DNA of 64,000 nucleotides from Sediminibacillus massiliensis (GTDB lineage: Bacteria; Bacillota; Bacilli; Bacillales; Amphibacillaceae): assembly GCF_900156915.1 (NCBI RefSeq), contig NZ_LT732535.1, forward strand, positions 2,677,211-2,741,210, read 5' to 3'. Position 1 is the stretch's first letter; every line of letters begins with the position of its first letter. Below, in pieces: positions 1,552-59,487 of this stretch. The notes beneath the pieces were generated by a model that was not told the DNA's origin, did not search any database, and worked only from the letters and a program-made list of their open reading frames with translations. A program made the position numbers and the translations under genes.

Positions 1552-1996
1552 AAAATGCGACATAACTAGCTTCACTAAACGTGACTTCCTACCATCCTTT
1601 TCGGATTGAGTGGTGGTCCAGCATTGTGTCTGTCAAGGTTCTCCCTAACAAAAAGAGAAAACTTTTACTAGAGATAGGCAGAACACGCAGACTCCTATGG
1701 GAATAGCAAAGGGCTTAGATTGGGCGAGTAATCGCAGTCCCACTAGTCCGAAGAACCCAAGTGATGGGTCTGTGTCTTCCAGTAAAGCTTCGCAGCAAAT
1801 TTCTCGACCCATGATTTTCGGTGGGACGAATAATCGCAGTCCCAAAGGGAGCAGGGAAGCTTATTCAAAGTAGTCACGTGGCTGAGGCCACGCCCGAGGA
1901 AAGCGAAGTGTTCTGCTGAAGCGTGAAATATCCACTTTACTATCTTCAGAACATAAGGAAGCCTCGCTGAAGTAAATTTTCAGTAGTTCGCAGTTT
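1552..1996. mobile_element. MITE/REP-like repeat element, copy A
   Basis: This non-coding element starts with AAAATGCGACATAACT and ends near AGTTCGCAGTTT, a shortened form of the right end seen in copy B (AGTTATGTCGCAGTTT). The interior has palindromic GC-rich blocks shared with copies B and C, such as AGACTCCTATGGGAATAGC, GTGGGACGAATAATCGCAGT and GAGGAAAGCGAAGTGTTCTG. There is no credible ORF or transposase inside. Similar GC-rich repeats are scattered in many Bacillaceae genomes (recalled, not searched). It lies between the two parC-like clusters. Confidence 0.65.
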
Positions 1997-2820: not shown

Positions 2821-3651
2821 TTAAGATACAACTTTTCTAACGATCTTTTCCCACATTTTCCATGGAAGAACCTTTTTAAGTATAATCATAAAGCGAATCC
2901 CCTTTCCGATCGGATAGCGCAGCCTGGGGTTCTTCTGGTCGGCTATTTTGACTATCAATCTGGCAACGCATGAAGGGTTCCCGAAACTATCGGTATTTTC
3001 TAAACGAGCCATTAACTTTTTCACCATAGGAAAATACGGGGAGGATGAATCTAGTGATTTGCTAGTTATCTGCTTACCTGTTGACCATATATTGGTTTGA
3101 TAGGAACCAGGTTCTACTAGCGCCACATTTACACCATAAGGCTTCATTTCCAGTCTTAGCGACTCACTAAGACCCTCTAAGGCATGTTTGGAGGAAGTAT
3201 AAGGGGAAAGCCCCGGAAAGCCGACACGGCCACTGATACTGCTGATATTGATAATCGTACCTTTATTCTGGTTTCTCATCACTGGAAGGACAGCTTGCGT
3301 CACTGAAATAGTTCCAAACAAATTCGTTTCGAATTGTTGACGATATTCTTCTATCGGGATTTCCTCAACAAATCCTGCTGCTGCAAATCCGGCGTTATTG
3401 ACGAGAATATCGATGGTATCCAAAGTTGCGACAAATTCTTTGAAATTATTAATCGAATCTTTGGAGGTTATGTCCAACTCCACTATTTTTACCCTGTCTA
3501 CTATTCCCTTTTCCTCGACAGCATTTCTCAGCACAGCCTTCTTGTTCAAATTTCTCATGGTGGCTATAACATACCAGCCTTTTTCTGCAAATTCCAAAGT
3601 TGAGAGCAACCCAAAGCCACTGGATGCTCCCGTAATGATAACTGTCTTCAT
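2821..3651 (-). CDS. SDR-family NAD(P)-dependent oxidoreductase
   Basis: This is a classical short-chain dehydrogenase/reductase of 276 residues, the usual length plus a short C-terminal extension. The N-terminal TGASSGFG motif (residues 7-14) binds the dinucleotide, NNAG is present near residue 86, and the catalytic YTSSK (Tyr-x-x-x-Lys) is near residue 153, preceded by the SSISG serine. The C-terminus is basic and hydrophobic. The ATG at 3651 follows a strong GGGGAGG site at good spacing. The gene lies downstream of the cation exchanger but is separated from it by a terminator, so it is probably a single unit. The substrate cannot be told from sequence; members act on steroids, sugars, fatty acyl or small carbonyl compounds. 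Confidence 0.85.
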   Translation of the reverse strand: MKTVIITGASSGFGLLSTLEFAEKGWYVIATMRNLNKKAVLRNAVEEKGIVDRVKIVELDITSKDSINNFKEFVATLDTIDILVNNAGFAAAGFVEEIPIEEYRQQFETNLFGTISVTQAVLPVMRNQNKGTIINISSISGRVGFPGLSPYTSSKHALEGLSESLRLEMKPYGVNVALVEPGSYQTNIWSTGKQITSKSLDSSSPYFPMVKKLMARLENTDSFGNPSCVARLIVKIADQKNPRLRYPIGKGIRFMIILKKVLPWKMWEKIVRKVVS

Positions 3652-56339: not shown

Positions 56340-56791
56340 AAACTGCGACATAGTGACATTTTTATTTCCTGTTATTCTAATGATTGTTAAGCGCATGCAC
56401 TCGCTGCGGCAGAACACTTCGCTGTCAGGGGCTTTCTGAAAGTTTTGTTAAGGAATACCACATGTTAGACATACTTTTAAGATCACTTCTCACCTAATCA
56501 GAAAACTTTACCGAGCTGCGGAAAAATGCGAGACTCCTGTGGGAAAGGAGCAGTCTGAAGACCCCGCAGTGATGCGCCTGCGTCTTCTAGTATCGCTTCG
56601 TAGTAAGATTCCTCGGCGCATGGTTTTCGGTGGGACGAGTAATCGCAGTCCCAAGGGAGCAAAGGAGCCTACTCAAGTAGTACCCTGGCTGAAGCGTTCC
56701 CCACGGAAAGCGAGTGTTTTTTCGCAGCGCCGGCTCAGTACTCAATCCGAAAAGGATGATAGGAAGCCACACTCAAGTTATGTCGCAGTTT
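56340..56791. mobile_element. MITE/REP-like repeat element, copy B
   Basis: A 452 bp non-coding element with terminal inverted repeats: AAACTGCGACATAG at the left and AGTTATGTCGCAGTTT at the right. Internal blocks match copy C in the same orientation, such as GGAATAC...ATGTTAGACATACTTTTA and CTTCTCAC. Other shared blocks are GTGGGACGAGTAATCGCAGT and GAAGACCCCGCAGTGA. It has no transposase gene. It ends 43 bp from the serA stop. Confidence 0.75.
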
Positions 56792-56834
56792 ATGGTAATC
56801 CAGAAAAAACGATCTTTTTGAAAACAGTCTTTTT

Positions 56835-58421: not shown

Positions 58422-58594
58422 GGTTAGACCTCCTAAGTATTTATCCTACGAATTTCTTTTTTCGTTTTCGTTTTTCAGTTTCTTTTCTATCGTTCTATAC
58501 TACCCATTTATAAGACACCTGACAAATAACCACGCTCCTTCCTCTTTACAACCAAAAGCCCATTTTTTATTTTTGCGTGGGGCGTATAAACCAT

Positions 58595-59134
58595 AAACTG
58601 CGACATAACTGGCCTCATCCTAATCAGTCGACTGCTGCACGACCGCTACGGCAGAACACTTCGCTTTCCGCGGGCACGGCCTCAGCCAGGGGGCTACTTG
58701 AATAAGCTTCCCTGCTCCCTTGGGTCGAGGAATTCGCTACGAAGCTGAACTGGAAGACGCAGACCCATCACTCGGGGTGTTCGGACTCGTGGGACTGCGA
58801 TTATTCGTCCCATCTAAAACCCTTGCTGTTCCCACAGGAGTCTGCATGTTCTGCCTTCGCTGGTAGGGATTTTCTGAATTTTGATGTTAGGAATACTTAT
58901 GTTAGACATACTTTAGAACAACTTCTCACTTATTCAGAAAATCTAACGAAGCGGAGGAAAAATGCGACACTCATGGGGGAAGAGCAGCTTCCGAAGACCC
59001 CGCAGTGAGTGCTTTTTGCTCAAGAGGAGGCTGAGGTGCTGCCCCCGGAAAGGGAGTGTTTTTCCGTAGCGCTGGACTACCACTCAATTCGAAAAGGGTG
59101 GAAGAAAGCCACACTGAGAGTTATGTCGCAATTT
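58595..59134. mobile_element. MITE/REP-like repeat element, copy C
   Basis: A 540 bp non-coding element bounded by AAACTGCGACATAACT and AGTTATGTCGCAATTT. Interior blocks include CAGAACACTTCGCTTTCCGC, TCGTGGGACTGCGATTATTC, AATACTTATGTTAGACATAC and GAAGACCCCGCAGTGAG. It is in the same orientation as copy B. It separates serA from the T-box leader; its right end is about 40 bp from that leader's terminator. Confidence 0.75.
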
Positions 59135-59175
59135 GCCTCTAAGCCGAAGCTTATCAAAGCTTTTACAGCCAAAAT

Positions 59176-59455
59176 AAAAAACTTCCCGTCCCTTGCTTTG
59201 GCAAGGGGCGAAAAGTTTATAGTTCACGCGGTACCACCCTTTTTTCACTGCCCTTTTTTGCAAGGACAGCCTTCATTGGCGCCATGGGTAACGGGCATGA
59301 ACCGGACAGATCTACTCGTGCTTCAATCTATCTATTCCAAAGTGCTATCTGTTAAGTAGAAACACCGGTTCACACCATCCACCAGCTCTCTGAAGTTTCG
59401 TAACATAACGGCATTGTCTTCTTCTACATAGTTTATGTATTAAGTTGAATTTTGA
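59176..59455 (-). ncRNA. T-box leader, serine specifier (for serA)
   Basis: On the minus strand: the AGAGAGCTGG stem I base (59382-59391), GGTGTGAACCGG, then a specifier region ACAGATAGCACTTTGG. Its AGC codon (59344-59346) corresponds to serine. The T-box GGTGGTACCGCG (59227-59238) is followed by a terminator, AACTTTTCGCCCCTTGC...GCAAGGGACGGGAAGTT plus TTTTTT (59176-59218). Uncharged tRNA-Ser should favour antitermination. The next gene on this strand is serA, which fits serine control, although repeat copy C now lies between them. Confidence 0.85.
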
Positions 59456-59459
59456 ATTT

Positions 59460-59487
59460 ATCATAGCAGAAATATCATTATTGTCAA
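59460..59487 (-). promoter_or_regulatory. Promoter of the T-box leader
   Basis: Minus strand TTGACA (59482-59487), 16 bp, TATGAT (59460-59465). Confidence 0.65.

Follow-up and report, generated by a model that had tools for sequence, protein, structure and literature searches.

The window, that is, the whole stretch of 64,000 nucleotides of Sediminibacillus massiliensis DNA analysed here, contains a serine T-box leader and, in the same direction, serA, with a repeat element (element C) lying between the two. The coordinates of these features and of two further copies of the repeat are collected in Table 1.

Table 1 Features of the serA locus and copies of the repeat family; coordinates are positions in the window
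Feature	Position	Strand	Basis or remark
Sigma-A-type leader promoter, TTGACA-16-TATGAT	59487-59460	minus	11/12 consensus matches, TG before -10
T-box leader RNA	59435-59201	minus	RF00230 covariance-model match, 101.8 bits
Specifier codon AGC (Ser)	59346-59344	minus	read from leader alignment
T-box motif GGGTGGTACCGCG	59239-59227	minus	invariant across 11 aligned leaders
Intrinsic terminator, hairpin 59217-59180, then T-run	59217-59171	minus	dG -21 to -22 kcal/mol
Element C, 545 bp, from the dispersed repeat family; ends inverted, no gene found within	59134-58590	.	repeat-family matches
Weak promoter-like site TTGTCA-17-TAGTAT, rival serA start	58525-58497	minus	9/12
serA Shine-Dalgarno AGGAGG	58429-58434	minus	sequence
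serA, phosphoglycerate dehydrogenase, 528 aa	58421-56835	minus	TIGR01327, 700.7 bits
Element B, second family member	56340-56796	.	inverted relative to C; 38 nt past serA stop
Part of third family copy	~1552-1923		repeat-family match

A covariance-model search of the window matched the leader over the full length of the RF00230 model (1-219), the score exceeding the gathering score of 93, and no other Rfam match at gathering level was obtained in the window. The T-box motif, the terminator and the upstream promoter are all on the serA strand, and the AGC specifier fits the regulated gene. Eleven leaders, when aligned, all had the same AG bulge and T-box motif, and 10 of them had AGC as specifier; the -10 region, TCTGCTATGATA, was identical in five of six aligned leaders. 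The serA leader of Aquibacillus halophilus (L097) carries GGC (Gly) and not AGC as its specifier, in a T-box that is otherwise standard. Used as a query, the leader DNA gave matches in 32 of 61 genomes, at 30 loci. Much of the leader was matched at 17 of these (own included), all of which scored above the RF00230 gathering score; these are the leader loci used, with E of 1e-9 or better, and the other 13 match short leader stretches only. The promoter, AGC specifier, T-box and terminator that the earlier note had described as intact and on the serA strand are thus borne out by the match and the motif positions, and the complete covariance match confirms the T-box class.

The serA ATG lies at a distance of 780 nt from the T-box model end (774 nt by the measure used across the leader loci), and 545 nt of this spacer are element C. 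Measured from the terminator T-run it is about 750 nt, the same distance that had been given before. It is the largest seen in the genome, whose other T-boxes lie 67-360 nt from their genes, as taken from the 12 of 29 fetched T-boxes that a simple rule assigned to a downstream gene. On the serA strand, the interval from the T-box region to serA contained no ORF reaching 50 aa. A missed gene between the two, which the earlier note had named as a finding that would overturn its view, was therefore rejected, and its description of the locus was correct in all essentials; the size of element C, put there at 540 bp, was measured as 545 bp.

The ends of element C are complementary at 94% over 16 nt. 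Throughout the family the ends are inverted, with AAACTGCGACATAGTGACA or a variant at one and AAACTGCGACATAACT at the other, and they are accompanied by short recurrent flanking sequences. At least 95 pieces matching element C were found in the own genome, a lower bound obtained with 40 of 199 candidate places scored, and end-like sites with at most one mismatch numbered 178 there vs 9 for a reversed-pattern control. Family matches were present in 103 of 120 genomes sampled from the taxonomic family, the own genome counted, and in 40 of 46 genera. Sorted by their neighbours, 30 copies comprised 13 co-directional (the window's included), 12 convergent and 3 divergent ones and 2 without a gene called on one side, counts that are rough in that some loci resemble scaffold duplicates; by a simple ORF rule none of the 30 lay within a called ORF. 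Plasmid records gave a single element match, in Radiobacillus kanasensis (23% of the query, 73%), and phage records none. The RNA of element C is predicted to fold nearly end to end (-213.8 kcal/mol, z -8.3; equalled by none of 100 shuffles), in agreement with the strong structure noted before. A known RNA family was sought for the element and rejected, the T-box being the only gathering-level match in the window, and no description of the repeat family was found in the open-licence PMC literature.

At the site matching that of element B, Sediminibacillus albus has short family matches between serA and the HAD gene (L132 5874-6109), which perhaps go back with element B to a shared old insertion. 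Another copy is found about 400 bp upstream of the own serC, before its ZTP riboswitch (L168 ~2971-3400); that both serA and serC have a family copy upstream may be chance.

Element C is MITE-like in its terminal inverted repeats, whose sequences are shared by other copies, and in its many dispersed, mostly intergenic, non-coding copies. It is not AT-rich as MITEs are, with a GC content of 50.8% vs 42.5% in the window and 40% in the local flanks. A target-site duplication was not found among 17 copies, where the longest shared flank word averaged 4.9 vs 4.7 in shuffles; old copies may have lost theirs. No transposase was evident between such ends in 15 fetched stretches, which take in a minority of the 178 end-like sites and several of which hold N; each ORF was judged by eye on its first 70 residues. 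The longest end-to-end stretch fetched (L177, 1.88 kb) was considered as an autonomous partner and rejected, as it proved to be a copy of the element, its halves duplicated and a gap of 778 N inside it. Because neither a target-site duplication nor a partner insertion sequence was found and the element is GC-richer than its surroundings, we regard it as MITE-like, short of classing it as a MITE.

Gene order was compared over 36 leader loci, the window's included; the leader was found in 37 genomes, and G077, G102, G084 and G067 were left out. serA came directly after the T-box, at 99-394 nt, in 13 of the 36 loci, and in 19 a class V aminotransferase gene came first, with serA 1224-1287 nt behind the T-box. 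A family member between the switch and the first gene was detected at two loci, those of the window and G013. The latter has a remnant (88% over 84 nt to a copy of the element from the G013 genome, E 3e-25), and its spacer between T-box and aminotransferase is 436 nt vs 64-104 nt in other such loci. This restriction to two loci and the dispersed copies support the view of the earlier note that the repeat is inserted. In G013 and G099, which belong to one genus, the aminotransferase itself is displaced from the T-box. In G099 (L201) it is about 260 nt farther from the serine T-box than usual, and the extra sequence gave no repeat-family match. In Terrihalobacillus insolitus (G028), a 539-codon TnpB-like ORF stands between the T-box and the aminotransferase-serA pair in the same direction (L098 926-2542); it passes the cut-off of 32 for TIGR01766 with 43.9 bits and scores below cut-off for NF040570 (71.4, cut-off 100) and PF07282 (17.1).

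In S. albus the order is ssb-rpsR-hsp20-T-box-aminotransferase-serA-HAD-yybS-gdpP, and the window has the same order except that the element takes the place of the aminotransferase. The order T-box-aminotransferase-serA, preceded by hsp20, occurs in every one of the five genus-g24 genomes that gave a leader match, which include S. albus. In a SerA tree of 21 rows (the window and 20 relatives) the window grouped with S. albus and five other rows, with support of 97/95. The aminotransferase lies beside serA in all five, and a search for a T-box motif in the 2.5 kb before serA was negative in these rows; part of the clade therefore lost T-box control or never had it. No aminotransferase remnant was found in the two spacers, which gave no similarity to this gene at E up to 10, and a joined-flank alignment did not reveal which of the relatives' spacers is ancestral, since their sequences part immediately behind the terminator. 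As the simplest history, the lineage of the window would have lost the aminotransferase, with serC serving instead, and the element would sit in the emptied slot. Since the nearest relatives carry the aminotransferase gene in this slot, the element has probably not simply pushed a T-box-serA pair apart; a gene would also have been lost there.

The own genome has no close copy of this aminotransferase (best 35%) and has a canonical serC (532 bits) away from serA. Of 22 other distinct genomes, 12 carried serC but lacked the aminotransferase at serA; the remaining 10 carried the aminotransferase but no serC above cut-off. With the window, 23 of 23 fit this split (10/10 aminotransferase-bearing genomes without serC, 13/13 others with it). 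The chance of so clean a split is 9e-7, a figure that ignores relatedness and applies to genomes chosen for having the serine leader, in which the aminotransferase was sought at the serA locus only, except in the window genome; three duplicates among the 25 genome entries (G146=G033, G149=G016, G150=G028) were counted once. In the species concerned, the class V aminotransferase behind the same T-box as serA is probably the phosphoserine aminotransferase, because it takes the place of serC in all genomes compared, and this assignment from comparison can be put to the test. A ZMP/ZTP riboswitch was detected upstream of the own serC (L168 2627-2708 minus) and in six of seven relatives scanned (L169, L170, L171, L173, L174 and L176, with none in L175), L172, a duplicate of L171, being left out; serC was present in 14 rows. 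With a ZTP riboswitch at serC and a T-box at serA, the two genes answer to different signals in these species.

We infer that serA remains under the control of an ordinary serine transcription-antitermination T-box, acting across about 1.03 kb of untranslated leader, and assign this reading a probability of roughly 0.65. Transcription would start near 59453 and, when tRNA-Ser is charged, would halt at the terminator. When serine is short, uncharged tRNA-Ser would pair with the AGC specifier and the T-box bulge, the antiterminator would form and the polymerase would read through the element into serA. The element would be a non-coding repeat in the slot that holds the class V aminotransferase in the nearest relatives; its transcript would fold back on itself and be tolerated, so that element C is most likely a passenger and not a break in control. 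Continued control is favoured because the leader is intact and conserved, the distance is within the range of relatives, no convincing second promoter was found and other interpositions occur in the same slot. As serA lies 1224-1287 nt behind the T-box in relatives, the 774-780 nt of the window are within the distances that the operon bridges. That interposition is tolerated is likewise suggested by these relatives and by the G013 remnant and the TnpB-like gene of Terrihalobacillus in the slot. Against continued control, the 780 nt of the window are untranslated and most of the 1.2 kb is translated in the aminotransferase-type relatives; Rho or decay could therefore act on the spacer. The weak terminator-like hairpin of element C, the promoter-like site at 58525-58497, the missing T-box motif in five rows of the SerA clade and the 480-nt maximum of the 2008 survey (all described above or below) count on the same side. 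The earlier note had offered either control through a long leader or uncoupling, and the intact leader, the distance and the lack of a convincing promoter favour the former, short of proof.

Uncoupling would mean that serA is transcribed from a promoter of its own between element and gene, for example at 58525-58497, and that transcription from the leader does no more than produce a short attenuated RNA or run on into the element. The promoter-like site at that position speaks for this, as does the control of serC by another signal, the ZTP riboswitch, which indicates that the pathway tolerates split control. A separate promoter between 59134 and 58421, with no read-through, had been named in the earlier note as a finding that would refute its view, and what the interval holds is this one site, no site above 9/12 having been found on the transcribed strand from T-box to serA. 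It is not clearly better than chance: sites of at least 9/12 appeared in 12.3% of dinucleotide shuffles of the element-serA flank and, under a looser rule, in 22.6% of simple shuffles, and 3 of 13 spacers of T-box-serA relatives have a 9/12 site at other positions. Moreover, every functional part of the leader is kept, and such parts should disappear in time once a leader is uncoupled. We therefore regard uncoupling as unlikely. Slightly less likely still is a role of the element as a second layer, in which RNase III would cut the hairpin or a weak internal terminator would trim read-through, so that T-box and element together set serA output. The very stable end-to-end fold is consistent with such a role, and cleavage of Correia-element RNA by RNase III at the inverted repeats, in mtrCDE transcripts, is a precedent described in passages of PMC10969869; any inverted-repeat element would fold in this way, however. 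On the transcribed strand, element C has a weak terminator-like hairpin and T-run (dG -8.6 to -10.8 vs about -22 for the T-box terminator). Such pieces recur in the family: in the 22 of 30 copies scanned, they reached -9 or lower on 23 of 44 strands vs 18 of 88 shuffles, and -12 on 6 of 44 vs 3 of 88. The piece in this copy (-8.6) is weaker than those of several sister copies (-11.5), and the presence of a family member at two of the 36 loci gives no sign of retention. No strong terminator was found on the transcribed strand from T-box to serA, a result of one scan, the simple scan having missed the T-box terminator and a stricter one the hsp20 terminator.

It is very improbable that the arrangement is an assembly error at the repeat. 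In the same assembly, some element copies do have exact duplications nearby, about 1.1-1.3 kb long and joined by one or more N. The window is without N, however, the order from ssb to gdpP matches S. albus on either side of the element, and a correct join would give a serine leader beside serA, as found. Continued T-box control remains the preferred reading of the locus. A separate idea, which we consider unlikely, is that sequences repeatedly land at the site just past the terminator of the serine T-box, which, depending on the lineage, is occupied by the repeat element, its remnant, a TnpB-like gene or the aminotransferase, and that all arrivals come under amino-acid-starvation control. If so, the Terrihalobacillus TnpB would be expressed on serine starvation, and the element transcript in the window strain would be a starvation-induced structured RNA.

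The exact tandem duplications with N at the join are at L181, L182 and L191 of the own genome, and N inside or beside repeat-element copies was seen among L023, L177, L181, L182, L189 and L191. The duplications are probable scaffolding errors, and some of the N may be masking. Outside the window, eleven tandem T-boxes with a period of 259 bp precede a thrS (G000:C6 1453092-1455906 minus; L091 4093-6907). The gene behind the array (TIGR00418, 779 bits) is apparently the second thrS of the genome, the other one having been seen by eye. Copies 2-10 share one sequence, from which copy 1 departs at 2 positions and copy 11 at 37, and the array contains no N. At most two adjacent T-boxes were found in the four relatives searched, and the 2025 survey, in its passages on ThrS (PMC12452182), gives two or three T-boxes before this gene, at most three vs the eleven here. 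With apparent duplication errors elsewhere in the assembly, the count of eleven seems provisional. The exchange of serC and aminotransferase changes regulation too, and with the threonine T-box array it is among the more interesting by-products of the analysis.

Neither a serine T-box on serA nor a non-coding repeat within a leader is new in itself. The full-length match of the window above the gathering score is like that of other RF00230 leaders. The closest counterpart is the serA of Paenibacillus polymyxa, where, according to passages of PMC8002221, an AGC T-box lies in a 508-nt leader, the specifier was proved by mutation and the gene responds to serine starvation. AGC specifier, T-box motif, terminator and serA downstream are the same in both. 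In P. polymyxa antitermination and starvation induction were shown experimentally; the P. polymyxa leader is 508 nt long vs about 1030 nt predicted here, and those passages mention no repeat element in it. In the figures given by the 2008 survey (PMC2494555), 839 T-boxes were within 300 nt of the start codon, 48 at 300-480 nt and none beyond 480 nt, a maximum that the 780 nt of the window exceed. For a T-box combined with a transposable element, nothing on point was seen among the matches listed, the best 8 of 63 in the open-licence PMC literature. With Correia elements and other bacterial MITEs, as portrayed in parts of PMC10969869, element C shares its short, non-coding, intergenic and inverted-end nature, its position between promoter and gene and its stable RNA fold. 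It differs from them in being GC-richer than its surroundings and in that no target-site duplication or partner insertion sequence was found. What is new here is an instance that joins a serine T-box on serA with a repeat in its leader, across an unusually long spacer, and the mechanism proposed for it is an ordinary one. As a natural experiment, the locus bears on the limit of the T-box-to-gene distance and on the amount of structured RNA that a leader tolerates.
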